A DNA stretch of 51,974 bases from a virus (IMGVR_UViG_3300045452_000030:1-51974); one strand, 5' to 3'. Counted from the stretch's first letter, positions 37 to 31,442 are shown. Made by a program: numbers and translations. The notes: generated from the sequence alone by a model not told the origin.

Positions 37-127
37 GGAGACGTGGCCGAGTGGTCGAAGGCGCTCGCCTGGAAAGTGAGTATACGGCAAAACCGTATCG
101 AGGGTTCGAATCCCTCCGTCTCCGCCA
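37..127 (+). tRNA. tRNA-Ser (GGA anticodon)
   Basis: A full cloverleaf can be read. The acceptor arm GGAGACG (37-43) pairs with CGTCTCC (117-123), followed by discriminator G and an encoded CCA (125-127). The anticodon loop CTGGAAA sits between CTCGC and GTGAG, giving anticodon GGA, which reads UCC/UCU serine codons. There is a long class II variable arm (TACGGC...), and the T loop TTCGAAT is canonical. The tRNA points toward the defence operon, a common insertion context for genomic islands. No integrase lies next to its 3' end, and no copy of its 3' end was noticed elsewhere in the window. Confidence 0.97.
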
Positions 128-402: not shown

Positions 403-906
403 TTACGCAGGTTCTTCTAACACGTACTCACAAGAGGCGAAATCACTCTCTAGTAGGTCGGGAAAGTCACGATAATATCCGACTTGCGACCATCTCAGGA
501 GCCATGATTTTTCGGCTTTGAACGCACTCTCGCAAGTTATCTTTTCAGGAAGTGTCTCACATGTATGGTCCGCAATTCGGAGATACATTTGGATTGCGGT
601 CTCATCATTTGGCTGCCCTAAGCCGGCTATTCTAATGGCGTCCGCATCGAAGAGCCCTTCAAAAAAGTATATCCATTCCTGTTGGCCTGAAATTTGAGCC
701 CGGCAAAAATACCACTCGTCTTCAAGCAACGGGGAGGTGTATGTGAAAGTGAATAAATGAACTCTTTCTGTCAGGGCGTAAGGAATTCCTAGGTCCCCAT
801 CCTCATCAACTAGGATGCAAGGATCTGGCAGAAGGCCTAAAATCGCTAATTTTTCGCCATCAGGCATTGGCGCCCAATCGATTTCAGGCATTGGAAATTT
901 CCACAT
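403..906 (-). CDS. Hypothetical protein, last gene of the defence operon
   Basis: A 167-residue acidic protein that I do not recognise. The ATG at 906 is preferred; a TTG at 912 would add two residues. It begins inside the last codons of the helicase gene, so translation is probably coupled. No signal peptide or membrane segment is visible. The sequence is rich in aromatic and acidic residues (for example DEWYF, EWIYFFEG, WLLRW), suggesting a compact soluble domain. Its base composition is clearly more AT-rich than the helicase next to it, which hints at separate acquisition. Its position makes it a candidate accessory or immunity-type partner, but no function can be assigned. Confidence 0.7.
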   Translation of the reverse strand: MWKFPMPEIDWAPMPDGEKLAILGLLPDPCILVDEDGDLGIPYALTERVHLFTFTYTSPLLEDEWYFCRAQISGQQEWIYFFEGLFDADAIRIAGLGQPNDETAIQMYLRIADHTCETLPEKITCESAFKAEKSWLLRWSQVGYYRDFPDLLESDFASCEYVLEEPA

Positions 907-3655
907 AACCAATCAGCTCGGCAGAGTAGCTACCATCGCCTGTAGCTAAGCCCTTGTGTTTAAGCTCGCGCTGAAGGGTGGGCTCGACCACGTTCGCGAA
1001 CAACCCCAGCCTTTCCTCGGCCGTCAGGAAGGGTTTGGAGACAGGTGCGTTCAGGTAATGGCTCGACTGTCTTTCAACAGCAGGCATACGTGTGCCGTCC
1101 GGTTGTACTGCTATGGTCTGTATCGTGGTCCGCCGCTCACCGTTCGCGACAGCGGACTCGACAATCCAGAACGACAGGAGTGTCGGGCTGAGGTCATCGC
1201 TGGATACGGAAAGGCCCAGTTGTTCTGGAGCTAGCCCCCTCCAGCGGCCTAGCTCATCCTGAACCAACGGGTGGTCCAAGCCGAGCAATTCGATGCCTTC
1301 CTGACTCGTGGCAACATCGCGATCAAGCGTGAAACGCGCCTTGCGTGACCCATCAGCGGCCGTCAGATCGTAGGTTTGATCATCTACCTTTGCGAGCCGC
1401 TGGTGTCGGTAGGGAAGAGAGGATGACAAGAATTGGACGATCCTACCCATACCGGTCGAGACGTCGGAAAATGGCTGATACTCGTCGAGGCTGAAACCAT
1501 CGAGGTCCTGGAACAGATCAAACACAACCTCCCGAGCTTCTCGGGCATTGGATAGCGCGGCCTCGAGTTCGACGGTGGTCCGCTGCAGAGCGGGATCGGA
1601 CAGCGCCTCCTGATAGACGCGGTCGTAGTTCAAGCGTTCGGATAGCTGTCCCAAGATTTGAGCCCGGAGATCCTCAGCGACATTACCCTGATCGTCGACC
1701 TTGCCCAGTGTCCTGGCTATCTCGGTGAGCTTGTCGTCTAGGAGTAGGAATATCCGCCCCTCGATCGTGTCGGAAAGAACGAGATTATAGACCTGGGCAG
1801 TATGTGCCTGGCCGTATCGATGGATACGCCCGATCCGCTGCTCCATATCCATCGGGTTCCAGGGCAGATCAAAATTGAACAGGATACGGGCAAACTGGAG
1901 ATTAATCCCCTCACGCCCGGCCGCGGTGCAGACCAGAACCCTGGGCCCGTCTTTCGTTCGGAAGCGGCGCTCAGCCGCTGTCTTGGCGCCATGATCGCCG
2001 CCACGAAGCACGACGACGCCTTGGCCGGGATAGACCTGCTCGATCTCACGGGCGATCAGATCGACAGTCCCGAGATAGGTCGCAAAGATGACGACCTTCT
2101 CGCCTGGATTTTGACGCCACAGCGTTCCCAAACCATCCAGAAGCTTCTGGACCTTGGTCTCGCGTGGTTGCGGGAACGCTTCGAGCAGGTCGCCGATGCG
2201 CAGCCGCTCCTCGGGCAGATGAAGGTCCACGACGGACGAGGCGATATCCTCGACGTGTGACACGGCGAACTCGCTGCCGTAAGGGTCTGAGGCCATTTCT
2301 AAGGCGTCGTCGTCGAGCTTTCTGGCAAGCCGGTACTTAAGGTCGGCCATCACCCGATCGACCTCGCTGCGCCCAATCGGATCGCGACCGAGGCTCCACT
2401 CGAGATGGATCAGCTCGCGCGCTTCATCGTACAGGCGCTCGCGACCCTCGATATCGAGCTCGCGGTCGCGGAGAAGGGCTTCCTTGAGCGTCAGCATTAG
2501 CAACCGCCGCTTCAGGGTCCGACGGACGGCGGCGAAGCTCGAAGCAGCAATCTTCTGGAAAATCGCCATCAGGAAACCTAGGGCTCGCCCCTGGCTACCC
2601 TTGCGTTTAGCCAGATCGAAACCGTCCTCAAGGTACTCACGCAGCTTCTCGTAAAAGCGGCGCTCTTCTTCCTGCATGAGGAAAGACTCGGTGTGGACCC
2701 AGCGCCTGGCGAACAACGGCTCACCATCTGGCTTGCAGGCGTCAGCCTTGGTCCGGCGGTACATGACAGTATTCAGTCGATGCCTATGCTCGACCATCTC
2801 CTCTGGTCCGTTAAACAGGGTCGGATTGAGTAGCTGGATCAGCATCCAGAATTGAAAGTGGTTGCCCTGATGCGGGGTCGCGGACAGGAGAAGGAGATCA
2901 CGGGTATGGCCCTTGAGAGCCTCCGCCAGTTTGTAGTTCTCGGTCTTCCTGACCTTTCCTCCCGTTCGATAGGCTGTCAGGTGGTGAGCCTCATCGAACA
3001 CCACCAGATCCCAACGTGGGGCGTCCAGAAGTCGCTTTATTCGGTTCGGGCGCTTTAGCGTGTCGATGCTCGCAATCAGCAGATCGTGCTTGGCGAATGC
3101 GTTGGTCTTGCGGTCTGTGATGTCGCCTTCAGACCCAAAAACCTCGAATTCGAGATTGAAGATCTCGTTGAGCTCACGGTGCCAATTGTTCACCAATCCT
3201 GCCGGTACCACCATGAGCGCGCGGTTGAGCTCTCCGCGGCTAGCCAGCTCTCTCAGGACGAGCGCGGTCTCAATCGTTTTGCCCAGACCCACCTCATCAG
3301 CGATTAGAAACCTGCGGGGTGAAGCCGTCGCAATACGGTGTGTGAGGACCACCTGGTGCGGCAACAGGTCTATACGGGCCGACGTCAGAGCCGACGCGCT
3401 CTCCATCAGCGGTAGGACGTGCGCCTCGTAAGAGAGCCAAGCCTTTCGCGCGCGATCCTCAGTGCCTTCAACCGACTGAAGAATCCGCTCAGTACGAGAC
3501 GCCTCGGCCTGAATGCTGGCAACAGGAACCCGACGTTCGCCGACGCTGAAGAACGCTCGAAGGTAACCTTCGCGAGGCGCATCCAGGACGACGCCGGCGC
3601 CGAACTCAGCGTGGGCGATCCTCTCGCCAGGAGCGAACTGAGGCTGGTCTGTCAT
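884..3655 (-). CDS. SNF2/HepA-family DEAD-like helicase of the defence operon
   Basis: A 923-residue superfamily 2 helicase of the SNF2/RapA (HepA) type. Motif I is ADEVGLGKT near residues 120-128, motif II is DEAH at 221-224, motif III is LLSATPHQG near 257, and motif VI is EQRIGRIHRYGQ near 600. An N-terminal segment (residues 8-36, FAPGERIAHAEFGAG...) resembles the small beta-barrel/Tudor-like lead seen in RapA-like proteins. The long C-terminal region is probably system-specific. The gene starts 9 nt after the 166-residue gene and overlaps the last gene, so it is part of the operon. Helicases of this kind accompany methylases in BREX (BrxHII) and DISARM (DrmD). The role in DNA translocation or remodelling during defence is inferred. 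Confidence 0.93.
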   Translation of the reverse strand: MTDQPQFAPGERIAHAEFGAGVVLDAPREGYLRAFFSVGERRVPVASIQAEASRTERILQSVEGTEDRARKAWLSYEAHVLPLMESASALTSARIDLLPHQVVLTHRIATASPRRFLIADEVGLGKTIETALVLRELASRGELNRALMVVPAGLVNNWHRELNEIFNLEFEVFGSEGDITDRKTNAFAKHDLLIASIDTLKRPNRIKRLLDAPRWDLVVFDEAHHLTAYRTGGKVRKTENYKLAEALKGHTRDLLLLSATPHQGNHFQFWMLIQLLNPTLFNGPEEMVEHRHRLNTVMYRRTKADACKPDGEPLFARRWVHTESFLMQEEERRFYEKLREYLEDGFDLAKRKGSQGRALGFLMAIFQKIAASSFAAVRRTLKRRLLMLTLKEALLRDRELDIEGRERLYDEARELIHLEWSLGRDPIGRSEVDRVMADLKYRLARKLDDDALEMASDPYGSEFAVSHVEDIASSVVDLHLPEERLRIGDLLEAFPQPRETKVQKLLDGLGTLWRQNPGEKVVIFATYLGTVDLIAREIEQVYPGQGVVVLRGGDHGAKTAAERRFRTKDGPRVLVCTAAGREGINLQFARILFNFDLPWNPMDMEQRIGRIHRYGQAHTAQVYNLVLSDTIEGRIFLLLDDKLTEIARTLGKVDDQGNVAEDLRAQILGQLSERLNYDRVYQEALSDPALQRTTVELEAALSNAREAREVVFDLFQDLDGFSLDEYQPFSDVSTGMGRIVQFLSSSLPYRHQRLAKVDDQTYDLTAADGSRKARFTLDRDVATSQEGIELLGLDHPLVQDELGRWRGLAPEQLGLSVSSDDLSPTLLSFWIVESAVANGERRTTIQTIAVQPDGTRMPAVERQSSHYLNAPVSKPFLTAEERLGLFANVVEPTLQRELKHKGLATGDGSYSAELIGYVEISNA

Positions 3656-3664
3656 TCGACCGCC

Positions 3665-4165
3665 TTAGGTGATCCGAAGGTGGAACAAGCCTGACGGCTT
3701 GGCCCCATCGGCGAGAATGATTTCCTGCGGATAGTCCCGGGCCTCTCCCCAGATGAGACGCCCGAACTCGACCTGCTGATCACTGTGCGGTGCGGCGCAA
3801 CGCCAGCGGACGGCTTCTGTGGCCATGTCGGTCTGAAAGCGGCGCTGGCCGGATGGTAACCAGAAGACCAAGGCCGCTTCGCCAGAATAGGCGTCCTGAA
3901 ACGACAGCACCGCCGCCTTGAGGTCGTCCCCCAGCCATGTCTCCGCATCGGTCGGAGATAACAGATCGATACAGGCATCCAGGCCAGCGACAACAAGAGT
4001 ATTGCCATCGTTGCTCGGCAGGTCGTCTGGCCAATTCTTACCGGCCTGAAGCAGCTCCCGCAGGCTGAGAACTTCCGAAGGGCGCGCCACGGTGTAGAGC
4101 GCTTCATCATCCCAAATCCAGCTTACGCCTCGGCGCTGCCACACGCTGTCGAGCAATCGCTTCAT
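3665..4165 (-). CDS. Hypothetical 166-aa protein between methylase and helicase
   Basis: The ATG at 4165 lies two bases after the methylase stop and has a strong GGAGG site seven bases upstream, which fixes the start. The protein has alternating hydrophobic stretches (NTLVVAGLDACIDLL, ALVFWLPSG) that suggest an alpha/beta fold, but no P-loop and no known catalytic motif. I do not recognise the family. By position it could correspond to the small unassigned partners of BREX type 3 (BrxF-like) or to DUF3780-like companions of DUF499/DUF1156 clusters. I cannot show homology to either. Confidence 0.8.
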   Translation of the reverse strand: MKRLLDSVWQRRGVSWIWDDEALYTVARPSEVLSLRELLQAGKNWPDDLPSNDGNTLVVAGLDACIDLLSPTDAETWLGDDLKAAVLSFQDAYSGEAALVFWLPSGQRRFQTDMATEAVRWRCAAPHSDQQVEFGRLIWGEARDYPQEIILADGAKPSGLFHLRIT

Positions 4166-4167
4166 GG

Positions 4168-7100
4168 TCAGTCCTCCAGGAACAAGGACATCTGAACGAC
4201 GGCGTCTTTGTTGCTGGCCGCCCAGGCGTTGTAGATGGAGAGCGCCCTGGAGGACGCGTTGCGCATCGGCTGGTTCGGCGCGCGCTTGCCCAACCACTCC
4301 AAGAGACCCTTGAGCGCCGGATGGGGCTTGAAATTGTCGTTCTTCAGCGTGTCAGACGCATTGATCCCACTGCCATCGTAACAGGCGCCCACAAGAACCA
4401 GCGCCTGATCGAGGTCAGCCGTCAGCCTACGGCGATGCTTGCCTTGCCAGTCCCGAGCAAAGTCCAAAGGATTGGCCAGGTGAAAGACCTTCTTCTCTTC
4501 GCTTGCCCAACCACGGCTGGTAAATTCATCGGGCGCGATGCCAGAACCGCGGAGTAGCTTCTGCATCTGATCGCGGGCGAGCTCAGTCTTTCCGTCGAAT
4601 ATGCGCAGGAACTGACGAGTGATCGGTTCCGCTGTCACCGGCGGCGGCTCGGCGGTCTTGTTCGCGTCCTCATCGATCAGCTGGTTGATGCCCACCAGCG
4701 CGTCCTTGACGGAGATCGGGCGACCCTCGTCGACATAAACCTTGCCGTAGTGACGCGAAAAATACTCGAGCGCCTTGCCACGGCGGATGACCTGCAGATC
4801 TGCTGCAGGCAGGCCCGCCCTGGCGTGATTTTCCAGCATGCCTTGCAGCTGACGGACGTCAGCAAGCACCTCGCGGCGCATCCGGCCCCAGCTGACCGGC
4901 TTAGGCTCTTCCGTACGTTTCCGACAGACGTGAATAATGTCGTATTCAATAGTCTGAGAGCCAAAGGTTCCTGGTTTCGCACCTTCACCCTTGGTTTCAT
5001 CCGACCGAATGGGATAGGTCGCCTCAAGGTAAAAACCCGCATCGAATAGAGACTCGAGCACAGCGATCCAAGGCTCGTCGGCGCTATGGTGGAAAGTAAA
5101 ACTCAATATGCCACCGGCCTTAAGAATGCGGTGAGCTTCTTTCCAACAATCAGTTAGAATTCTTTTGTAAAAACCATCCGGGTCTTCTGGTTCTCTTGCC
5201 CTGTTCGACACTGCCTCGAGAGCCTTTGGGGTGGCAGATGCGCCAAAGTGCGACGGATAATTATCCTTGAGAGCCGCTCGCAGCCAAACGTAAAAAAAGT
5301 CGCTCAATTCCGAATAGTGCAGGAGCCCCCCGAATGGCGGATCAGTAATCACCAAGTCCAAAGAAGCATCAGCGATAAAATCGAGATCAGTGGATGAATG
5401 ACACCGCACATCGGCACCGCGCACAGGATCCTTCAGATTAACTTTTACACCCTTGCCTGGAATTTCAGACGCTAGGTCTGTTCGGCCGCAGCTTTCGAGG
5501 TTGGATTTAGCCACAATATCCCAAGGGTCATTGGTCCACTGAAGGCCATCCAAAATACCTCGGGCGCAACCGTTCCAATTACCTCTTCCATATTCACCGA
5601 AAACGGAATTTTCCACTGTAGTCTGCTTGGGGTGAAAATTGTTATTAGAGAACATTGGCTCAAGCTGATCAGCTTGTGTGTTCCATATAGTAAAGTTATT
5701 ATTATTTCTTACGTATTGCTGCAGGCACCCGAGAACATACTCTCGCACCTCTTTGGAGTAATCTCCAACACTCATTATTGATTTTAATAAAAGAGAGTGC
5801 GCGAGGAGTTCGCGCGCGTTGAACATATCTGACCAATAATGATATCCATGGCCATTTTTTATATCGCCGTTGTTATGCGTTGTCATAAATCCATCGGGAA
5901 TTGCCTCGCGAGGCCAACATCCGTCTAGATCTTTAGACTTACGGGCTTCCCACTCCATAATAGCAGCGTTCATTTGCTTGGCCTCGCGCTCGCCAAAGGG
6001 CGCGAAGAAACGGCCATTGTAAGGCGCGCCAGACGCTCTCCTCTGTTTTGAATATGCATGGATCGCATAAGCCGACATTGGCCCATTTTTTCCGGTTTGT
6101 TTTGCTGAGGCCAAGACGTCATTCAATGCGCCACAGGCAGAACAAGTGAATTTAGCCTTGCCAGGGACAGTGCCACCGGCCTTTCCGGTGGCAAATGTCC
6201 GCCCAGTTTCTGGACACGTAACTTGCGCGGGTAGGTCGCCCCTAACCTCAAGGAGGCGGACATTTTGCGACCGAGCTATGTTCCATTCTGCAGTAGAGGA
6301 TGGCGAATCTTGAGTCGATCCACCAAATGTATTTCCATCAGAGCCGACAGAATTAATTCCATTGAGCCAATCAGGATGAACAAGTAAAGAAAGTGAAACT
6401 GACTTATTTTTCGACTTTCCTAATTTAACCATATCCTCGTCCCCGCAGTGAGGACATATTACTTTACCATTACTATTAATATGGGAGAATTTTACCTCAT
6501 CATCTGCTACAAAAAGAGGAATGCTTGGCGCCATTCTCGCTTCCGTATCCTCAATGTCGTAAGCGCCTCCGCATGCTGAGCAGTTGTGCCTCCAACTTTT
6601 CACGGAAATCGATTTAACAGCCACAACGGGGCTGGTCATGATTGGCGTACGATGGCCGCAGCCTGTAACCTTGCAAAGTCCATGTTTTGCCCAAAAAGTG
6701 TAGATAATTTCAGGCCCTTCGTAGCTGTAGTCTTTTCGCTCTTCAGGCAAGAGGGCCAGCGGGTCAAAATCCGCGCCCATCACTTTACCTGAGGGTTTAT
6801 GCTTCCAGACGCCTGTTTCACCGTTAGGGCCATCACAATAGTAGAATGGCATGATTTGAGGTTTCACGTCGGCTTCGATGTCTGTCAGTAGGCACTTTAC
6901 CTCATCAAGGTCGACATCTGCCAATTCCTGCTTCACCACAAACCAGGCAACGGGATTAAGGTCATTACCTGACATCTGCATGCCGAGGCGTGACCCCTCA
7001 ACCAGAGTAGTGCCACCCCCCATAAAGATGTCGGCCACTTTCAAATGTTTGTAGCCCCCCTTTTTCTGATGATTAGCATAATAGTTGTCCCACACCAATT

Positions 7101-7389
7101 TAGCCGCGTGGGACGGATCTTCTGGAGCTCTTGTTGCGGCCGCGATAAGCATTGAGCGGAATACGCTGGACCGCCGACGCGCCCACCATTTAGACATCTG
7201 ATAAATTGGTTTGCTTGCAGGACCTTCTATCGCGGCCACCTGGTTCACTGATAGGATCGGGAAGTCCACCTCAAGGCAAGTTTTAGGTCGGTTGGGATCG
7301 CTAAAATCTACCGTTTCCAGAGCAGCGGCACGCCCGGCGCCAACCTCACGGGCTACTTCCTGGGCAATGAATTCTTTTTTCGTGGCCAC
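4168..7389 (-). CDS. DUF1156 N6-adenine DNA methylase (PglXI-like)
   Basis: A 1073-residue methylase starting at GTG 7389, with AAGGA about ten bases upstream. The N-terminus (about 36-95) has the DUF1156 signature ending in KWWARRRSSVFRSML. SAM-binding motif I, VADIFMGGGTTLVEG, is near residues 118-132, and catalytic motif IV, DPPFGG, is near 683. This motif order with a very long middle insert resembles alpha-class enzymes. The insert holds several cysteine pairs (CSACGG, CPHCGDED, CSACGA) that look like zinc ribbons and could read the target or bind DNA. The middle of the gene (about 5060-6900) is visibly more AT-rich than its ends. DUF1156 methylases are known from BREX type 3 and DUF499 clusters. 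Likely role: self-marking of host DNA. Confidence 0.94.
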   Translation of the reverse strand: MATKKEFIAQEVAREVGAGRAAALETVDFSDPNRPKTCLEVDFPILSVNQVAAIEGPASKPIYQMSKWWARRRSSVFRSMLIAAATRAPEDPSHAAKLVWDNYYANHQKKGGYKHLKVADIFMGGGTTLVEGSRLGMQMSGNDLNPVAWFVVKQELADVDLDEVKCLLTDIEADVKPQIMPFYYCDGPNGETGVWKHKPSGKVMGADFDPLALLPEERKDYSYEGPEIIYTFWAKHGLCKVTGCGHRTPIMTSPVVAVKSISVKSWRHNCSACGGAYDIEDTEARMAPSIPLFVADDEVKFSHINSNGKVICPHCGDEDMVKLGKSKNKSVSLSLLVHPDWLNGINSVGSDGNTFGGSTQDSPSSTAEWNIARSQNVRLLEVRGDLPAQVTCPETGRTFATGKAGGTVPGKAKFTCSACGALNDVLASAKQTGKNGPMSAYAIHAYSKQRRASGAPYNGRFFAPFGEREAKQMNAAIMEWEARKSKDLDGCWPREAIPDGFMTTHNNGDIKNGHGYHYWSDMFNARELLAHSLLLKSIMSVGDYSKEVREYVLGCLQQYVRNNNNFTIWNTQADQLEPMFSNNNFHPKQTTVENSVFGEYGRGNWNGCARGILDGLQWTNDPWDIVAKSNLESCGRTDLASEIPGKGVKVNLKDPVRGADVRCHSSTDLDFIADASLDLVITDPPFGGLLHYSELSDFFYVWLRAALKDNYPSHFGASATPKALEAVSNRAREPEDPDGFYKRILTDCWKEAHRILKAGGILSFTFHHSADEPWIAVLESLFDAGFYLEATYPIRSDETKGEGAKPGTFGSQTIEYDIIHVCRKRTEEPKPVSWGRMRREVLADVRQLQGMLENHARAGLPAADLQVIRRGKALEYFSRHYGKVYVDEGRPISVKDALVGINQLIDEDANKTAEPPPVTAEPITRQFLRIFDGKTELARDQMQKLLRGSGIAPDEFTSRGWASEEKKVFHLANPLDFARDWQGKHRRRLTADLDQALVLVGACYDGSGINASDTLKNDNFKPHPALKGLLEWLGKRAPNQPMRNASSRALSIYNAWAASNKDAVVQMSLFLED

Positions 7390-7401
7390 AGCCTATTGTC
7401 C

Positions 7402-8391
7402 TTAGATAGATAGCTCGATGAAGGGCGAGAGCACTTCGAGCAGTGAAAGGCCGCCATGGGCCAATGTTGGGTAGCCGCCCTGACTGCGCCATTTCCAGCG
7501 GCCTACCGCCAGAAGATGTGCGCCGTTAGATCCGTTTGCCTGCATCACAATCGGCGGGACAAACGGTCCCGGGTCAATCTCGCCAGCGATGCTGCGGCCA
7601 CTCTTCAGGGCCGATTTGAGGTAGTTGGCCTGCTGGTCGGCGGCATCGAAGAACAGCCCTGTGGCCGCGTAGCCATGATCAGAGGTGATGATCAGCCGTC
7701 GGCCGGTCGCCAAGCGCTCAACAAATGCCCAAAAGTCGTCGCTGCTCAGCTGCTCGGCAACATCTCGGGTCAGGACATCCAGTCCTTGTCCAGCGCCCGA
7801 CCCATCGTGGATCTTGCTGTCCGGCCATTGGTGCCAGAATAGCCAGTTTGGCGAAGCGTCAATGAGATTTGCGCAGTCGGCCCAGGGCAGGTCGATGCAT
7901 TCGGTTTTGGCAGGTGTCAGCCGATGTGCTGAGCCGCCACCATTATTTTGAAGCTGACTTCGGCTATTGAGGCCCAACCCTCTTGCAAATGAGTTGGTGT
8001 CGCTGGGCAGCTCGGAGCCTGTGGCCGTGGCCTCATGAAGGATGAAACCGCGTTCCTTTGCACCTGCGATGAGCCAGGGCAGTTCGCGTAGGCTCAAGCC
8101 GTCGAGGATTAGTACGGCCTTGGCGCTGTAGGGCTCGGCCCACCACCGCGCCAGACGGTCTGACGTCCGTTCGACATCCTGGCCAAACTGCTTCCAGAGA
8201 TCCCAGCCACCCGCGGAAAGGAAATGGTCGAGTGTGCCGATTTCGCGATCGCGCCGGGTCACCTCGCTTTGAGCCGTCGCCGCCGACAGGGGCGCTGAAC
8301 AGGTTTCGACCGCGCGGCTGATGATGGACTGCCACGCGGCCTTTGATGTCGCGCTTGCCAGCTCGCGGAGTTCGTCAACACCCAGAGCCAT
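7402..8391 (-). CDS. Short stand-alone PglZ-domain protein
   Basis: A 329-residue protein whose C-terminal two-thirds is a PglZ (alkaline phosphatase superfamily) domain. The evidence is VLILDGLSLREL near residues 93-104 (metal/nucleophile region), LIITSDHGYA at 233-242 and YPTLAHGGLSLLEV near 307-320, the last typical of PglZ C-termini. Typical BREX PglZ proteins are much larger (roughly 650-900 residues), so this is a compact form with little more than the catalytic core. It overlaps the ATPase stop by one base (TGATG) and ends 12 bases before the methylase, so the three are likely made together. PglZ is required for BREX defence; its biochemical target here is unknown. Confidence 0.88.
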   Translation of the reverse strand: MALGVDELRELASATSKAAWQSIISRAVETCSAPLSAATAQSEVTRRDREIGTLDHFLSAGGWDLWKQFGQDVERTSDRLARWWAEPYSAKAVLILDGLSLRELPWLIAGAKERGFILHEATATGSELPSDTNSFARGLGLNSRSQLQNNGGGSAHRLTPAKTECIDLPWADCANLIDASPNWLFWHQWPDSKIHDGSGAGQGLDVLTRDVAEQLSSDDFWAFVERLATGRRLIITSDHGYAATGLFFDAADQQANYLKSALKSGRSIAGEIDPGPFVPPIVMQANGSNGAHLLAVGRWKWRSQGGYPTLAHGGLSLLEVLSPFIELSI

Positions 8392-11129
8392 CAGCCTTCC
8401 TCTTTGTCCAAGGAGAGCTCAAAGGTCATGCCGTCTGGCAGCTTCCGTAGGAGCTCCTTGAGTTGAGCTCCGGTTGCGGCGGATACTACGAGCGTGACCC
8501 CGCCGACCGGCGTCGCCGGCCCGATGCCCCAACCCTCAAGTCGGCCGATCAGATTTAGGGCAGACGTCGGCGGATTGGAAAGTCTCACGCGAGGCTGTGA
8601 ACCGCCGCCGCCGAAGATGCCGCCAGAGCCCGGGGACGGCATGCCGTCGGTCGGACCTGGACCGGGCGTCGTAGGGATCGGCGAAGGCGAGCTACCTGTG
8701 GTCGATTGGCCGCCAAAGAGGCCGCCCACGGGGACGGGGGCTGGCACATCCGGTACCGGCGGCGTTGCCCCGCCTGTCGACGGCACGGCAGAAGGTGGCA
8801 GGAGGAACACTTCATCAAGCTGACGGCCGGTGAAGGACAGTTTCGGACGCAGGCGGCGCCATGCCGTGTCTTCATCCTCACCTGGCTGGGACTGGAGATA
8901 TTCCATTCCGCGCAGATTGATCGCGATTTTGCCCCTAGCGCAAAGGCGCACGATCCGCTCTTTCATGGCGGTTTCACCCAGCCACGGCGTGCAGTCCAGG
9001 CCGCCCGCACGGGGCTCTTGAAGTTCCTTGAGCAGTTTGCCGACCGAGGCATTGTCGGCCGCCGCCTCTAGGACCAGCGCTTGGAAATCTTCGGGCACAA
9101 AAAGGTCGTTTACGACCGCCTGCTCCAAAGCCTCCGGGATCTTGGCCCCCTGCTCGCGCAGCGCCTCAACGCTGAACTCGCACCTTTCAGGGTCGACGAA
9201 ATTCCAGCGATGTAGGACTGCAAACCGGTCGAACCGCTTTTTCAGTATGTCCCTGAGCTCACCTTGGTATTTGGCCTGGAGCTTCCGATACTCGGGGTTT
9301 TGACCGCTCCACTCCTGAGCCTTCATTGCAGCGCGCGCGAGGATCAGCAGATCTCGATCGTAAAATGCATTCGAGGAGCCGGCGCGAGGCAGCAGGAAGC
9401 GAATGGTGTTGCGGCGCTTCTGAAGATGTTCCTTGAGCCACCGGCCGAGGCGCTCGTTGATCTTGTCAGGCTCCTCGGGGAGCAGAAGAATTGGCAGGCG
9501 GTCGTCCCAACGGTCTGGGTGCTCGGCTTCATCCAGCGCCGTCCATGGGTCGGTCAGCCACTCCCGCGGAAGAGCGATAACCCTAAAGGTCTTTGCGACC
9601 TCTTCGGAGCCGCCGACCACATAGCGAACTTCCTTCGCCAGCTGTGCTAGGTCCTCACCATTGCTGAAGAGTTTATCATTGCGAGCCGACGCCATAAGCT
9701 TGGCCTGGGGGTTCTCGTCCTCGCGGAAGACGAGCCTTTGGCCTTCTTGGTGGATATTGAAACTGTTCTCGATGACCGTCGCCAGTTCGACCTGGAAACC
9801 ATTGTCATCGATTGCCTTGCCCTGCGTGATGTCGACCTGAAGGGTCGAGGGCTCTGCGCCGGCAAGGTTGCCGACCGCAATTGAACGAAGCCAGAGCGCC
9901 CCGATGATTTCCTGCAGGTGGGGTACCTTGGCGGCATGGCCCGGGACGGCATCAACCACCGAGGTCAGGTTACGTAGCGCCTTTTCGCGGAGCGTCCGGT
10001 GTTGCTGGTTGGCGACCGAGTCCAACAACGCCCCGATACCTGAATTCTCGTCATCCAGTCTGAAGTCAGCTGCTGTCAGAACAGAGGCCGTATCTCCCCG
10101 GCTTTTAAAGAGGTTGGCCAGAATGCGGATGAGGTCGCGCGTTTCCTGCGCGTCGGTAGCGACTAGGACCTGATCTTCCAGCAACTGCAGGAGATGCGGG
10201 GCATATGGCCAGGACTCGATAAAGTCAGCGCGCTTTCGGTCGTGTTCGGAGGACGGGACGTCCAAAAGGCGGAAGTACTCTGCGATGTGCACGCCGAGCA
10301 GCGCCTCGACATCCGCCCTGCTGATTTGCAGACGGTTTTCGAACAGGCGGTGCAACAGCATCCTGCGGCGATCATGCTGGATACGCTCTGGGCTGCCACC
10401 AGCCTTGAAGTCGACCTGAACCGGGTTGACGCGGTGGATCTGCTGATAAGCGTCGGTATCGCCATTACGCACCGATACCACCAGCGCCAGACGATCGGGA
10501 TGCTCCTTTGCGATCTCTGAAAGGATCTGGATGAAATTGAACGCCCAATTTTTCCAAGGAAACTGCTTGGTGTTAGTTAACCCGTCATACCACGTCTGAA
10601 ATTCGTCCAGCAGCAACATGGAAGGTGTGTGCTGCAGGAGCTCCAAGATCAACTGATCAGATGGAATGTCCGTGCCCAGCGCTTCCCATTTGCCTTTGAT
10701 GAAGGCGCCGTGTGGATGCCGTTCAAAAAGGAGATCCCAGAGAAATTTGTATCTCTGTCGGTGGAGGCTCTCACCGATCACCAGCATGCCGCTCCTCAGG
10801 GGTATTTGGCCTATCTCGGGCTGGCTCAAGGTAACCGCCCAGTTTTTTAACCATGCCTCAGTGGATGCTGGATCGTTAACCGCGTGAAAAAGTGCCGCCA
10901 TCAAGTGAGATTTACCGAGGCCGCGTTCACCCATCACGACTACCGGACGTCCTTGGTTAGGGCCAACAGCCTCAATGCCCTTCAGCAGGTCATGGGTAGG
11001 ATAGGTGATCTCGAGGAACTGTCTGGCGGCAACCTGTGTCGCGCCAGTGTTGGTCTCGTTAGAGAGCTCAATCGCAGTGCCCTTTAGACGCCTGCCCTTA
11101 AATTCATCTCTAAGAGTTAGCCCCAACAT
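8391..11129 (-). CDS. DUF499-type AAA+ ATPase (BrxC/PglY-like role)
   Basis: A 912-residue ATPase. Walker A GERGLGKSH is at residues 67-75 and Walker B MLLLDEF at 171-177. VVSVRNGD near 225 is a plausible sensor strand. The overall layout fits the DUF499 family of predicted AAA+ ATPases. After about residue 770 there is a long Pro/Gly-rich linker with repeated GGLFGG and GGIFGGGG blocks, then a small terminal domain of about 75 residues. The ATG at 11129 has AAGGAA eight bases upstream and overlaps the WYL stop by 13 bases. In related systems the ATPase is the large core component; here it probably assembles with PglZ and the methylase. Confidence 0.9.
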   Translation of the reverse strand: MLGLTLRDEFKGRRLKGTAIELSNETNTGATQVAARQFLEITYPTHDLLKGIEAVGPNQGRPVVVMGERGLGKSHLMAALFHAVNDPASTEAWLKNWAVTLSQPEIGQIPLRSGMLVIGESLHRQRYKFLWDLLFERHPHGAFIKGKWEALGTDIPSDQLILELLQHTPSMLLLDEFQTWYDGLTNTKQFPWKNWAFNFIQILSEIAKEHPDRLALVVSVRNGDTDAYQQIHRVNPVQVDFKAGGSPERIQHDRRRMLLHRLFENRLQISRADVEALLGVHIAEYFRLLDVPSSEHDRKRADFIESWPYAPHLLQLLEDQVLVATDAQETRDLIRILANLFKSRGDTASVLTAADFRLDDENSGIGALLDSVANQQHRTLREKALRNLTSVVDAVPGHAAKVPHLQEIIGALWLRSIAVGNLAGAEPSTLQVDITQGKAIDDNGFQVELATVIENSFNIHQEGQRLVFREDENPQAKLMASARNDKLFSNGEDLAQLAKEVRYVVGGSEEVAKTFRVIALPREWLTDPWTALDEAEHPDRWDDRLPILLLPEEPDKINERLGRWLKEHLQKRRNTIRFLLPRAGSSNAFYDRDLLILARAAMKAQEWSGQNPEYRKLQAKYQGELRDILKKRFDRFAVLHRWNFVDPERCEFSVEALREQGAKIPEALEQAVVNDLFVPEDFQALVLEAAADNASVGKLLKELQEPRAGGLDCTPWLGETAMKERIVRLCARGKIAINLRGMEYLQSQPGEDEDTAWRRLRPKLSFTGRQLDEVFLLPPSAVPSTGGATPPVPDVPAPVPVGGLFGGQSTTGSSPSPIPTTPGPGPTDGMPSPGSGGIFGGGGSQPRVRLSNPPTSALNLIGRLEGWGIGPATPVGGVTLVVSAATGAQLKELLRKLPDGMTFELSLDKEEG

Positions 11130-12010
11130 GAGCGGTTCCTTCCGTTTTCAACATTCATACCCAGCATCGAAACTGCGTCGTTTAAGATTACAATTTGCTG
11201 ATCTTGCGGCTTTCGGGCTGAAGGATCGGTGTCGAGCCCCAGCCGCTTCAGCGCATAGTAGAGCAGCGCTCTGCGGACCGGGATCGTAACTCTCCCATTC
11301 TTCATCCCATAATCAAGCTCGATTACCCGCCTCTGGTTGGGGCTGAGATCAGGATGAGGTCCAACCTCAAGCTCGACCACCTCCTCCCAAGCGGCATCTG
11401 ACACTGCCTGCTTCTTGGCGGCTCTTGTTTGACGCGTCTCAAGGATACGAGAGATTACGAAGTCGCGGTACTCACCGCTCTTCTCGCAGAAGGATCGGGC
11501 GTGCCAACGGAACCCATCGAATGCGAGGGCGTGCGGTGCAATCCAGCGCCACTCTGGATCCGGTGCTGACATGGACTGATATAGAACTTCTATAGCCTCA
11601 TGCCGCTTGTTGGCGGTGACGATTGACCGCAGGACAACAGGATCAATCCCACGAGCCGGTGCAGGCGTCGCGTCAAAGGCCGGTAGATTTCCGATCCAGG
11701 CATCATCAGGTGTGATGATCCCCTCAGCCACGGAGCGGACCTGCGACAGATATTGGGTCGCGTCAGGCTTCAGAAACAGGGGCTTGAAAGCAGAAGAGCG
11801 AACATAGGTCTTGCCGCTCTTATCGTAGACCATGTTGTCCGGGGCTAAGGCGATATAACGGTTTAGGTCGCCCGATGCCTGGTTTGGCGAGACCCCGAAT
11901 TTGTCGATCAGATCGCTCCGGTTGACGTGGCCCTCCCAGAACAAGCGGAATTCGATGAACTGGAGCTTCTGCTCCACTCCCCATCGTAAACTTGGCTTGC
12001 TGTCGCCCAC
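11117..12010 (-). CDS. WYL-domain transcriptional regulator (BrxR/CapW-like)
   Basis: About 297 residues. The N-terminal winged helix (GHVNRSDLIDKFGVSPNQASGD region) is followed by a WYL domain (EAIEVLYQSM..., WIAPHALAFDGFRWHARSF) and a WCX-like C-terminal extension. This is the architecture of the BrxR/CapW repressors that control phage-defence operons. GTG 12010 is chosen because GGGGG lies five bases upstream; GTG 12016 is possible but would have no spaced ribosome site. As first gene of the operon with a palindrome in its promoter, it is very likely an autorepressor that responds to a nucleic-acid or nucleotide signal. The ligand is unknown. Confidence 0.9.
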   Translation of the reverse strand: MGDSKPSLRWGVEQKLQFIEFRLFWEGHVNRSDLIDKFGVSPNQASGDLNRYIALAPDNMVYDKSGKTYVRSSAFKPLFLKPDATQYLSQVRSVAEGIITPDDAWIGNLPAFDATPAPARGIDPVVLRSIVTANKRHEAIEVLYQSMSAPDPEWRWIAPHALAFDGFRWHARSFCEKSGEYRDFVISRILETRQTRAAKKQAVSDAAWEEVVELEVGPHPDLSPNQRRVIELDYGMKNGRVTIPVRRALLYYALKRLGLDTDPSARKPQDQQIVILNDAVSMLGMNVENGRNRSCWG

Positions 12011-12053
12011 GGTCACCCCCGAATCACTTTTCGGAACCTTCCAAAAAGTTGAC

Positions 12054-12088
12054 AGGTGAGTCTAGTTGAGATTCACCTCTACAGGCAA
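12054..12088 (-). promoter_or_regulatory. Promoter with 25-bp palindromic operator of the defence operon
   Basis: Positions 12054-12078 form an interrupted palindrome: AGGTGA, one base, TCT, five bases, AGA, one base, TCACCT. All nine paired positions on each side match. Read on the minus strand, a -35-like TTGCCT (12088-12083), an 18-base spacer and a -10-like TAGACT (12064-12059) can be drawn. The palindrome covers the spacer and the -10. This arrangement fits autorepression by the adjacent WYL dimer. The promoter boxes are moderate matches; the palindrome is exact. Confidence 0.7.
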
Positions 12089-12105: not shown

Positions 12106-12507
12106 TCAGCTGTCCATCGGAGGGAAGTCAAAATGCTGCCGCTGTGCCCCCCATTCCGTTGGGAATGGGGCCGCTAGAACGGTCAGATCAATCCCGTCCC
12201 CTTGGTGCCCCTCTAGGATCGCATTGATGATGTCAGGGGCAAGCAATGTCATACGCATCACGCGTGTGAGGTAGCTCATCCCGATCTTCTCCTGCTCGGC
12301 GAGCTCAGTGATTGAGGCATATGAGCCCTCTTCGAGCATCCGCTTCCATCGGAATGCCCGGGCCAAAGCCTTGAGCACGGTGTTGTCATGCCGCGGCCTG
12401 CTCAGCTCGTTTGCGGGGGGAAGGATCATCTCCTTGCGTCCGCCACGCTTGGTGAGCTTGAAGGGTACGAAGACGGAGACAATATTCGGCTCCTGGGGCG
12501 TTTTCAT
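12106..12507 (-). CDS. Small ParB/KorB-like HTH protein of the recombinase module
   Basis: 133 residues. The ATG at 12507 overlaps the recombinase stop (ATGA) and has a strong GGAGGAAG upstream. A helix-turn-helix is visible around SITELAEQEKIGMSYLTRVMRM, followed by LLAPDIINAILEG, a pattern seen in small ParB/KorB-like proteins encoded next to serine recombinases in alphaproteobacteria. It may assist recombination directionality or regulate the module. The association is from family knowledge; the function is not established. Confidence 0.8.
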   Translation of the reverse strand: MKTPQEPNIVSVFVPFKLTKRGGRKEMILPPANELSRPRHDNTVLKALARAFRWKRMLEEGSYASITELAEQEKIGMSYLTRVMRMTLLAPDIINAILEGHQGDGIDLTVLAAPFPTEWGAQRQHFDFPPMDS

Positions 12508-13814
12508 GCGGCTTCCTCCAATGCAGGCGCACACAACTCTCGGGCCAGGGCACCAATGCCTTCGGTGCGAAGCCGGACATCAAGGCCTTCGCGGCCGACA
12601 ATTACTTTATCAACGATGAGCTGAACAATCCGGGCCTGCTCGGCTGGAAACAGTTCATCCCACATCGGGTCCAGCTCTCTCAGAGCCTGTCGCGCTTGTG
12701 CTTCGGTCAAAGCCGGCGTGCTGCGCGAAGCCTTCTTCCATGCGCCGATGATGACTTCCGGTTGACGAAATGCTGCCCGCAGTTGTTCGACAACGGCGGC
12801 TTCAACCTCTGCAGCTGGCACCCTGCCAACCTCACAAGCTCCTGCGCCGTTACGGAGCAATGTCTGGCTCACATAGTAGCGGTAGAGCTTCCCGTTCTTC
12901 AGCGTGTGCGTGGGAGAAAATGCTGCGCCATCCTGCCCCCAGATTAGCCCCTTCAGCATGGCAGGAGTGTTGGCGCGTGTGCGTCCGCCACGAACCCGAG
13001 GGCTTTCCTTAAGGATAGAATGAACGGCATCCCAGAGCTCGGTGCTGATGATTGCCTCATGCTCGCCGGGGTACCGGGTTCCTTTGTGGACTACGTCGCC
13101 GATATAGATCCGGTTGTTGAGCACACGGTAAAGGAAACCCTTGGTGATGCGCTTGCCGTTACGGGTCGTGATTCCTCGCTCGGCGAGCTCACGCAGCAAG
13201 TGCGTGCCCGAGCCAATCTCGCGGAACCGCTCGAAGATGTATTGGATTTTCGCCGCGCCAGACTTGTCGATGACAAGCTTGCGAGCCTTCACGTCATAAC
13301 CCAGCGGCGGCACACCGCCCATGTACATGCCCTTGGCGCGGCTCGCCCGGAACTTGTCGCGGATCCGCTCCGCCGTCACCTCACGCTCAAATTGAGCGAA
13401 GGACAGAAGCACATTCAGCGTCAGCCGACCCATGCTGGTGGTTGTGTTGAACGACTGGGTGACGGACACGAACGTGACATTGTTGCGCTCGAACACCTCG
13501 ACCAGCTTTGCGAAATCCATCAGCGAGCGGGACAAGCGGTCGATCTTGTAGACGACCACTACATCGACCAGCCCATCTTCAATGTCGGACAACAGGCGCT
13601 GGATTGCTGGGCGATCGAGAGTGCCACCAGAGATGCCTCCATCATCATACTGATCGCGGACCGGTATCCACCCTTCCGAGCGTTGGCTCGCAATATAGGC
13701 TTCGCAAGCCTCACGTTGGGCATCAAGCGAGTTGAACTCCTGCTCGAGACCTTCTTCGGACGATTTGCGAGTGTAAATGGCGCAGCGAAGCTTGCGTACG
13801 ATCTCGTTGCTCAT
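12504..13814 (-). CDS. Serine recombinase / prophage integrase
   Basis: 436 residues from the ATG at 13814, which overlaps the DUF2924 stop (ATGA) and has GGAGGG upstream. The resolvase domain begins CAIYTRKSSEEG with the catalytic serine near residue 18. It continues through IDRLSRSLMDF and the E-helix region FEREVTAERIRDKF. The recombinase domain follows (GYDVKARKLVIDK onward), then a C-terminal region with YRYYVSQ. The conserved arginines of the active site are present. As the only recombinase in the window, and at one end of a complete prophage, it is the likely integrase. Control of direction may come from the small proteins in the same operon. Confidence 0.94.
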   Translation of the reverse strand: MSNEIVRKLRCAIYTRKSSEEGLEQEFNSLDAQREACEAYIASQRSEGWIPVRDQYDDGGISGGTLDRPAIQRLLSDIEDGLVDVVVVYKIDRLSRSLMDFAKLVEVFERNNVTFVSVTQSFNTTTSMGRLTLNVLLSFAQFEREVTAERIRDKFRASRAKGMYMGGVPPLGYDVKARKLVIDKSGAAKIQYIFERFREIGSGTHLLRELAERGITTRNGKRITKGFLYRVLNNRIYIGDVVHKGTRYPGEHEAIISTELWDAVHSILKESPRVRGGRTRANTPAMLKGLIWGQDGAAFSPTHTLKNGKLYRYYVSQTLLRNGAGACEVGRVPAAEVEAAVVEQLRAAFRQPEVIIGAWKKASRSTPALTEAQARQALRELDPMWDELFPAEQARIVQLIVDKVIVGREGLDVRLRTEGIGALARELCAPALEEAA

Positions 13815-14260
13815 GCCGCCCTCCGCTTGTGCTTCAGGCCAAAGAAGACCCAACCGTTCCAGCGCGAACCAGTTATGGCTCGAGCGATGGCAGACAGCGA
13901 TTGATAGGGGCGCCCCTGCCACTCAAAGCCATTCAAGGTCACGGTGACGGTGTGCTCAACACCTTGCCATTCGCGGATCAGCCGGGTGCCTGCGATTGGT
14001 TTCAGGTCAGCGCGAACACTGCGCAGGCCGATATTCCCGCCATCCAGCTGCTCGCCTAGGTCTTCCAGCCGCTTCACCGTATCAGGCTTAAGGCCGCCAT
14101 AAGCGAGTTCCTGGACGCGGTAGGCCAGCCGGCTCTCCAAATATCGCCTGTTGAAGGGCGGAGGCTCACTGCCAAAAAGGTCTCGCCACTGCTTCTTAAG
14201 CTCGCCGATGGTAGCCGCCTTGATGGCAGCCAGCCGGGCCAGAACGGGGTCATGTTTCAT
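13811..14260 (-). CDS. DUF2924 domain protein
   Basis: 149 residues with the typical DUF2924 pattern: an N-terminal helical part (TIGELKKQWRDLFGSEPPPFNRRYLESRLAYRVQEL, in pieces), and a C-terminal part (GTRLIREWQGVEHTVTV, WQGRPYQSLSAIARAITGSRWNGWVFFGL). The C-terminal part resembles DNA- or nucleoid-associated folds. Members are nearly always encoded directly before a serine recombinase, and this one overlaps it by four bases. Proposed role: an accessory factor in integration or excision. Confidence 0.9.
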   Translation of the reverse strand: MKHDPVLARLAAIKAATIGELKKQWRDLFGSEPPPFNRRYLESRLAYRVQELAYGGLKPDTVKRLEDLGEQLDGGNIGLRSVRADLKPIAGTRLIREWQGVEHTVTVTLNGFEWQGRPYQSLSAIARAITGSRWNGWVFFGLKHKRRAA

Positions 14261-29554: not shown

Positions 29555-29884
29555 TCAGTCCTCTTCGCTGTTTTGAAGCCACGACGGAATGTCCCGCTGG
29601 GCATGCAGAATGCGCCAGACGTCGACGTGGTCCTCACCCGCCATGAAAAACACGAGGTACGGATAGCGTTTCAGTTTGCGGCTGCGCAAACCCGGGAGAT
29701 TGAGTTCCTGCCCCCAACGCGGCGTACTGCCGGAGGGATTTGCACCAATCTGCGCGTAGGCGGCCTCCAGCGCATCAATGAAGCCGAATGCGACATCGCG
29801 GCCGGCTTCGGCGAGATAATGATCGATTGCCTGCTCAGCATCCAGCCTCGCCAGTGCGCGAGGGATAACGGGAAGCGACTTCAC
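29555..29884 (-). CDS. parE: ParE-family toxin
   Basis: 109 residues from the GTG at 29884, which overlaps the antitoxin stop (GTGA). The pattern is ParE/RelE: IPRALARLDAEQAIDHYLAEAG, GFIDALEAAYAQIGANPSGS, then LPGLRSRKLKRYPYLVFFM and VWRILHAQRDIPSWL. ParE toxins poison gyrase. The antitoxin gene comes first, as in parDE. Confidence 0.9.
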   Translation of the reverse strand: MKSLPVIPRALARLDAEQAIDHYLAEAGRDVAFGFIDALEAAYAQIGANPSGSTPRWGQELNLPGLRSRKLKRYPYLVFFMAGEDHVDVWRILHAQRDIPSWLQNSEED

Positions 29885-30120
29885 GAAGCTGCGTGCTGGC
29901 TGACCCGGGCGCGAAGTTCGGCAAAATAGGTCTCGTCGGCAGGTGCCGTCGGAGCAGATGCCGCGCCTTCCAGCAGGAGGCCGCGCAGCTTCTGGACGTC
30001 CTGATCCTTGCGGATCAGCTCGCGGACATATTCGCTGCTGGTGCCGTAGCCTCGGGTGCTGACCTGCTGGTCGACGAACGACTTCAGCGTGTCCGGCAAA
30101 GAGATGTTCATCGTGCTCAT
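29881..30120 (-). CDS. parD: ParD-family antitoxin
   Basis: 79 residues from the ATG at 30120. The N-terminal ribbon-helix-helix (NISLPDTLKSFVDQQVSTRGYGTSSEYVRELIR, read in parts) is typical of ParD. The C-terminal tail binds the toxin. It likely represses its own promoter through the repeated TTGGCAA sites just upstream. Confidence 0.9.
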   Translation of the reverse strand: MSTMNISLPDTLKSFVDQQVSTRGYGTSSEYVRELIRKDQDVQKLRGLLLEGAASAPTAPADETYFAELRARVSQHAAS

Positions 30121-30139
30121 GAGGGCGCGAATACCACTT

Positions 30140-30156
30140 TTGGCAAAAATTGGCAA
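30140..30156 (-). promoter_or_regulatory. Tandem operator repeats of parDE
   Basis: TTGGCAA occurs at 30140-30146 and again at 30150-30156, ten bases apart, one helical turn. On the minus strand the distal copy forms a TTGCCA -35 with a 17-base spacer to TATTCG. Same-face repeats of this kind suit a ribbon-helix-helix dimer pair. Confidence 0.55.
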
Positions 30157-30200
30157 GATCGCCGCTCCGGCTGATCTGCCGGGATCTCATCGGAATTTTC

Positions 30201-31442
30201 ATGTCCCAAGACTGGCCGGCCCAGAGCAGCGAGCTCTGGCCGATAGAGAAGATCACCCCCTATGCGCGCAATTCACGCACGCATTCGGACGAACAGGTCG
30301 CCCAAATCGCTGCTTCAATCCGCGAATGGGGCTGGACCAATCCAATCCTGGTCGATGAGGACGGCGGCCTGATTGCTGGCCATGGCAGACTGCTTGCTGC
30401 CCGCAAGCTCGGCCTCACCCAGATCCCGACCATGGTCGCCAAGGGCTGGAGTGAAGCGCAGAAGAAGGCCTACGTCATTGCCGACAACAAGCTGGCGCTG
30501 AACGCCGGCTGGGACCTTGAACTGCTGGCCGTCGAACTGGGCGATCTGCAGGGTTTCGATTTCGATCTGATGCTGACCGGGTTCTCCGACGACGAACTGT
30601 CGAAGCTGCTGACCGAGAAGACCGAAGGCAACACCGATCCCGACGATATCCCGGAAGCGCCGATCGATCCCATTGCTAAACCGGGCGATGTCTGGCTGCT
30701 TGGGAAGCACCGCCTCGTCTGCGGCGACAGCACCGATGCAGACACTGTGGCCAAGGCGCTGAACGGTGTCTCGCCCCATCTGATGGTCACCGATCCGCCC
30801 TACGGCGTAGAATATGATCCGGCCTGGCGCGAGAAGGCGGGCGTTGCCGCTTCCGGCACCGCCAAGGGCAAGGTGCTCAACGACGACAAGGCCGACTGGC
30901 GCGAAGCATGGGCTCTGTTCCCGGGCGACGTCGCCTATGTCTGGCATGCAGGCCTGTTCGCCGGTGTTGTGGGTGAAAGCCTCGCCGCCTGCGATCTTAT
31001 GCTTCGCTCCCAGATCATCTGGGACAAGGGTCAGCTGGTCCTCTCGCGCGGCGATTATCACTGGGAGCATGAGCCCTGCTGGTATGCCGTGAAGAAGGGC
31101 GCGAAGGGTCACTGGGCGGGTGATCGTAAGCAGACCACCGTCTGGCATATTGCCAAGCCCAAGAAGAACGAGACGGGTCACGGCACCCAGAAGCCGGTCG
31201 AGTGCATGAAGCGCCCGATCGAGAATAATTCCAGCCCGGGCCAGGCGGTCTACGAACCGTTCTCGGGCTCCGGCACCACTATCATTGCCGGCGAGATGAC
31301 CGGCCGCTCGATCCACGCGATCGAGCTCAACCCGGCCTACGTCGATGTGACTATCAAGCGCTGGCAGGACTTCACAGGCAAACCGGCCACCCTTGAGGGT
31401 GACGGCCGGACCTTCGCCGAACTCAGCGAACAGCAGCGGTAA
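30201..31442 (+). CDS. ParB-domain N6-adenine (beta-class) DNA methylase
   Basis: 413 residues from the ATG at 30201. The N-terminal ParB-like part (ITPYARNSRTHSDEQV, LIAGHGRLLAARKLG at 57-71) is followed by motif IV TDPPYG near 197 and motif I EPFSGSGTT near 351. The order IV then I marks the beta class. Phage enzymes of this type methylate adenine and probably protect the genome from host restriction, including the kind of defence system next door. Followed closely by the cytosine methylase. Confidence 0.93.
   Translation: MSQDWPAQSSELWPIEKITPYARNSRTHSDEQVAQIAASIREWGWTNPILVDEDGGLIAGHGRLLAARKLGLTQIPTMVAKGWSEAQKKAYVIADNKLALNAGWDLELLAVELGDLQGFDFDLMLTGFSDDELSKLLTEKTEGNTDPDDIPEAPIDPIAKPGDVWLLGKHRLVCGDSTDADTVAKALNGVSPHLMVTDPPYGVEYDPAWREKAGVAASGTAKGKVLNDDKADWREAWALFPGDVAYVWHAGLFAGVVGESLAACDLMLRSQIIWDKGQLVLSRGDYHWEHEPCWYAVKKGAKGHWAGDRKQTTVWHIAKPKKNETGHGTQKPVECMKRPIENNSSPGQAVYEPFSGSGTTIIAGEMTGRSIHAIELNPAYVDVTIKRWQDFTGKPATLEGDGRTFAELSEQQR

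Follow-up and report, generated by a model that had tools for sequence, protein, structure and literature searches.

Type-3 BREX-Related (BR) systems were described in January 2026 by Rakesh & Krishnan in NAR, from 569 taxa (PMC12839542). According to the text of that paper, they are defined by a DUF499 ATPase, an N6-methylase, a nuclease-free BrxHII-like helicase, a standalone PglZ and an inactive STAND protein (iSTAND); a standalone, active PglZ occurs in all 569 taxa and iSTAND in 82% of them. The same text places an RRM at the C-terminus of the ATPase, describes a helicase that has lost its nuclease and carries an N-terminal TUDOR domain and an inactive nuclease fold, attributes a methylase with two four-cysteine Zn fingers to a subset of the systems, and reports auxiliary nucleases for BR systems in general, with few in Type-3 BR (PMC12839542). 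Among the papers that our search returned, none describes an activity for a Type-3 BR system. The Type I BREX protein PglZ binds BrxB and is a metal-dependent nuclease; this PglZ cuts dsDNA and contributes to defence, and BrxC binds the BrxB-PglZ pair.

The DNA analysed here, which we call the window, is a whole stretch of 51,974 nucleotides from an IMG/VR provirus record (IMGVR_UViG_3300045452_000030:1-51974). It is predicted to carry an intact anti-phage defence operon. Seven tightly packed genes had been announced in a preliminary description of this DNA, and all of them were found, complete and at full length on the minus strand, with overlaps or gaps of no more than about 12 bases:

12026..12049, no strand assigned: candidate operator from a repeat search, a 24-bp near-perfect palindrome with 11-nt arms
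11117..12016, minus strand: gene of a WYL-domain transcription factor, first gene of the operon
8391..11129, minus strand: gene of a DUF499 AAA+ ATPase (BrxC-like)
7402..8391, minus strand: gene of a standalone PglZ, 329 aa
4168..7389, minus strand: gene of a DUF1156-type N6-adenine DNA methylase, 1073 aa
5352..6591, minus strand: predicted target recognition domain of the methylase, GC about 0.47, exchanged relative to near-identical operons
3665..4165, minus strand: gene of a 166-aa protein, kept in position and sequence in relatives
884..3655, minus strand: gene of a SNF2/RapA-like helicase, 923 aa
403..912, minus strand: 169-aa ORF of low GC (0.464), absent from relatives

The small gene was read in its conserved frame, 4165-3665, which lies inside an ORF at 3665-4297; a competing frame of 152 aa at 3652-4110 is a spurious overlap and was discarded. 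A scan of the window for promoters and terminators gave no signal better than that of shuffled sequences.

The preliminary description held that this operon matches no full known type. Such a view is understandable, because none of the PADLOC, Pfam and NCBIfam models puts a name to the complete locus; the profile search that it had proposed, run with PADLOC-DB 2023, returned pieces of several systems and assigned the locus as a whole to none. The gene set is nevertheless that of the Type-3 BR definition as published (PMC12839542). The two share the DUF499 ATPase, the methylase with two Zn clusters and a recognition insert inside it, the nuclease-free BrxHII-like helicase, the standalone PglZ and the lack of a dedicated nuclease; the small protein of the window operon is a candidate for the iSTAND role. 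We see no difference in the core as the text of that paper describes it; on top of it, the window copy adds a WYL regulator of the CapW/BrxR type and adjoins a prophage integrase. We estimate at roughly 85% the probability that the locus is an intact Type-3 BR system acting as its homologues would suggest. What is observed, and detailed below, is the gene set and its order, the intact motifs, the clade of the ATPase, the conserved metal site of PglZ and the exchange of the recognition domain.

Searching for the same gene order in other genomes was a check named beforehand. Scanning 84,980 genomes yielded 213 relatives, 80 of which were taken in. Other genomes and plasmids contributed 62 complete loci, all with the order ATPase-PglZ-methylase-small gene-helicase, and the operon is therefore not a chance grouping; this order was found on Aminobacter, Ensifer, Klebsiella and Tenderia plasmids. 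Among the relatives taken in, the closest are sphingomonads (Sphingopyxis, Novosphingobium hassiacum and Sphingobium psychrophilum). The collected phage genomes gave no match to the operon. A haloarchaeal relative (L013, 15150-16523) has no detectable helicase within the region examined; its methylase is followed by a small protein and by another adenine methylase.

The ATPase exceeds the Pfam cut-off for DUF499 (26.4 bits vs 23) and possesses a Walker A motif, GERGLGKS, and a Walker B motif, LLLDE; in PADLOC it matches HmaC, at 5e-4 only. A published tree separates DUF499 ATPases from the BrxC of BREX-3. In our own DUF499 ATPase tree, the PglZ-linked members, one of them archaeal, are separated from the rest with a support of 1.000. 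When ten DUF499 neighbourhoods were read at length, some of these regions ending before the whole neighbourhood, PglZ was found in one, precisely that with an ATPase of the PglZ-linked clade. This clade is represented in 4 of 299 sampled Pseudomonadota genomes. The helicase matches the PADLOC models of BrxHI/BrxHII (2.4e-99), HmaA (9e-96) and DrmD (6e-75); Pfam recognizes SNF2 and Helicase_C only, the sequence match in the PDB is RapA, and searches of Pfam, PADLOC and the PDB found no fused nuclease domain.

As for the methylase, it matches HmaB in PADLOC (3.7e-35), with a score above that of PglXI. The NCBIfam model DUF1156_antiphage matches over the core with an E-value of 5.8e-26, but far below the model cut-off, and Pfam gave no match for the DUF1156 domain; the RefSeq annotation of the homologues is DUF1156. 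The motifs GGGTT (at 124) and DPPF (at 683) enclose a variable block, residues 255-650, and two four-cysteine clusters are invariant or nearly so in homologues.

These matches bring to mind several described systems. BREX type 3 has a homologous helicase, methylase and PglZ and the same presumed logic, and the operon had been called a BREX-3-like hybrid, which is right in substance, or a reduced BREX-3, which is not, the ATPase matching DUF499 and not DUF6079. One could still imagine a BREX type 3 that had lost BrxA and BrxF: the helicase scores best with the BrxHI/BrxHII models, and PglXI is a relative of the methylase. We consider this highly improbable, given that DUF499 takes the place of DUF6079/BrxC, that HmaB outscores PglXI, and that the five-gene set is stable in the 62 loci and thus does not reflect sporadic loss; PglZ is, moreover, of the single-domain kind. 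BrxA, BrxF, DrmB and DrmC had been noted as not seen; no gene of the operon matches BrxA, BrxF or BrxC (DUF6079) in Pfam or PADLOC, and none matches DrmB or DrmC in PADLOC. With DISARM, the operon has in common a SNF2 helicase of the DrmD kind, but it lacks DrmB, DrmC and a separate DrmA, and its methylase and ATPase differ; in PADLOC, DrmD and one weaker DrmA model match the helicase only.

The helicase, methylase and ATPase are also homologous to those of Hma / Type-1 BR systems, and the HmaA, HmaB and HmaC models all match, so that one may wonder whether the locus is such a system beside which PglZ happens to lie. This is very unlikely. The HmaC match is weak, and the ATPase belongs to the separate PglZ-linked clade; the helicase, at 923 aa, is without the C-terminal nuclease by which Type-1 helicases are longer (about 1180 aa in locus L144), whereas the three-gene Hma set has a nuclease-fused helicase; and PglZ, which like the small protein is extra to that set, is encoded between the ATPase and the methylase in all complete loci.

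PglZ itself is a protein with no further domains. Its profile matches a BREX PglZ (9nv3, E=1.2e-4), and its predicted model, of low confidence (pLDDT 63.7), matches PorX (E=7e-6); PADLOC returned no match for the PglZ gene or the small gene. Residues D97, T132, D191, H195, D238 and H239 are conserved in 89 of 89 homologues and H312 in 88 of 89, and we read these seven as the metal site of a nucleotide pyrophosphatase fold. Judged by sequence, PglZ is the only recognisable nuclease candidate of the operon. An alternative is that the system is of the same type but has another effector action that leaves DNA uncut: PglZ would have nucleotides or cyclic signals as its substrate, or helicase and ATPase would block replication. 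The affiliation of the PglZ fold with the nucleotide pyrophosphatase group would fit with this, as would the cleavage of oligonucleotides by the PglZ domains of PorX and BREX and the fact that loss of PglZ activity lowers BREX defence and does not abolish it. Since Type I BREX has a PglZ that cuts dsDNA and contributes to defence, and the window operon offers no other nuclease, we regard such an effector as possible, if rather unlikely.

The 166-aa protein was one of two genes given as unknown in the preliminary description. Its AF2 model is of high confidence (pLDDT 90.3) and, by a DSSP reading, has five core strands, a three-strand insertion after the fourth core strand, and an end that comes after the last strand. 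This strand order agrees with the iSTAND description given in the text of the Type-3 BR paper (PMC12839542). Foldseek returned for this model nothing significant, the weak matches being mostly P-loop NTPases, and no sequence match was found. Walker A is absent from 78 of 78 sequences of the family. We tentatively take this protein for a probable iSTAND and counterpart of BrxB/BrxF. We also observed, in the window and homologues from seven loci, two sequence classes of this protein (about 45% identical) that switch between operons otherwise 90-95% identical.

The second of the unknown genes, the ORF at 403-912, probably does not belong to the defence system. It has no match in Pfam, PADLOC or NCBIfam, and searches of the related loci, of the plasmid collection and of the 299 Pseudomonadota genomes gave no homologue; together with its low GC, this is what sets it apart. 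In the related locus L066, it is missing even though the tRNA-Ser side is kept.

At the other end of the operon, the WYL protein matches CapW (1.5e-65) and BrxR (6.5e-46) among PDB sequences over residues 8-279, and the Pfam WYL domain at 2.9e-9. By these matches it is a member of the CapW/BrxR family (wHTH-WYL, about 290-300 aa). CapW and BrxR have been shown to repress defence operons and to bind DNA at palindromes or inverted repeats, and by analogy the WYL protein is predicted to be a probable repressor of this operon. The palindrome lies ten bases before the WYL start, and a similar sequence is found upstream of the WYL gene in L066.

Comparison with the nearest operons revealed where the system varies. 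Between the window and L014/L015 (L015 being a Novosphingobium operon), identity amounts to 95% for the ATPase and PglZ, 99% for the small protein, 97% for the helicase and 92% for the methylase outside its recognition region, and falls to 51% in methylase residues 255-650. At the nucleotide level, blastn against L014, L015 and L016 gives no match from about 6506-6591 to 5352, with flanks of 84-90% identity; the GC of 0.47 in this region compares with about 0.59 in the ATPase and helicase genes. The same break is seen in other pairs, including L004/L078 (59%), L025/L026 (54%), L017/L018 (53%) and L058/L059 (55%). Across the 27 operon pairs in which ATPase and helicase are both at least 94% identical, identity in the recognition region lies between 42 and 100% and is 60% or less in 14 pairs, which are not 14 independent events because pairs share members; in the same 27 pairs, the methylase core is 84-100% and the small protein 86-100% identical. 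The search for a possible donor of the recognition domain in the window gave none, the closest sequence being 56% identical. Such a difference in operons otherwise 94-99% identical points to an exchange of target specificity. Since only the recognition region changes, the simplest reading would be that the target of both marking and restriction is determined by this domain and nothing else. A parallel can be drawn with Type I BREX, where the engineering of PglX shows that the methylase sets the specificity of methylation and of defence together (PMC11341690).

A second kind of variation concerns extra genes, located between PglZ and methylase in 20 of 85 loci, between methylase and small gene in 6 of 77, and between small gene and helicase in 8 of 77. 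Eleven loci represent such nested modules, which include IetA-IetS, SIR2-HerA, GmrSD, Schlafen and an OLD-like ATPase with DUF4276 (HEC-01); the window operon itself has none. The main text of the Type-3 BR paper (PMC12839542) mentions neither exchanged recognition domains in near-identical operons nor inserts of IetAS or SIR2-HerA.

The operon had been placed between a tRNA-Ser and a prophage, which proved correct, the adjoining prophage genes including those for an integrase, a terminase, a portal, a major head protein and a tape measure. The features bounding it are:

37..127, plus strand: tRNA-Ser(gga), on the operon side (ARAGORN)
12106..12534, minus strand: integrase-associated small protein (phrog_14161)
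12504..13922, minus strand: serine integrase of the prophage (phrog_95, 1.4e-109; Pfam Resolvase/Recombinase)

A second virus record of 36.8 kb (L003) unites terminase, integrase, integrase partner, WYL gene and operon, and L066 has the integrase, WYL gene, operon and tRNA-Ser in common with the window. The operon is probably cargo of the serine-integrase prophage. The terminase gene in the record of L003 (L154) has two in-frame TGA codons that are read through. A search for an exact attachment repeat shared by the tRNA side and the right end of the window gave none; on another L066 contig, the tRNA-Ser-adjacent region has a partial copy, which was rejected as an att site, being too diverged (72-76%). 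The record closes on the right with its last gene, a CopB-like copper resistance gene (50832-51848) that probably lies beyond the prophage; as a marker of the empty integration site it is multi-copy and uninformative. Inside the prophage, a protein with a ParE-type toxin domain is encoded at 29555-30256.

Integrases related to this one were seen in at least 600 IMG/VR stretches. In most of 12 such loci, genes of restriction or defence (Type I, Mza, Type II, a Zorya-like helicase) stand behind the integrase, but no frequency can be derived from these loci because they were picked by stretch length or by a match, and only the larger proteins were tested. One Type I system behind a related integrase comes with a WYL protein 46% identical to that of the window, and in two of the 12 loci a tRNA-Ser is located about 7 kb behind the integrase. 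The stretch behind the serine integrase and its partner gene is thus possibly a prophage defence hotspot.

One would also wonder whether an operon from a provirus record, with an unrelated low-GC ORF at its end, is a decayed passenger devoid of defence function. We hold this to be the least probable of all the readings, as the core genes are of full length with intact catalytic motifs and remain 94-99% identical to their relatives outside the recognition domain.

For the preferred reading, a Type-3 BR system, we infer all activities and the protein complex by homology. The methylase would recognise an adenine motif through its internal target recognition domain and mark host DNA there. A core complex could be formed by the DUF499 ATPase with PglZ and the small, putative iSTAND protein, in the manner of BrxC, BrxB and PglZ in BREX, which would scan DNA with the help of the helicase; on encountering unmarked DNA, PglZ would nick the invader. 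The WYL protein, probably bound to the palindrome, would keep the operon repressed until a trigger arrives, and the lysogen would be protected against other phages.

The window offers a complete, prophage-linked example of a class that has only just been described and for which we found no published experimental test. Because PglZ has no recognised competitor as nuclease, the operon is a clean setting in which to ask if PglZ is the effector, and the near-identical operons that differ in their recognition domain make possible a direct test of the linkage between motif and phage range. Beyond this locus, and with somewhat better than even odds in our opinion, Type-3 BR systems may be modular defence platforms, in which all specificity, for self-marking as well as for attack on non-self, would reside in the recognition cassette of the methylase while the rest stays 94-99% identical, in which fixed slots between genes would accept complete defence modules, and which serine-integrase prophages would carry in a hotspot on the integrase side.
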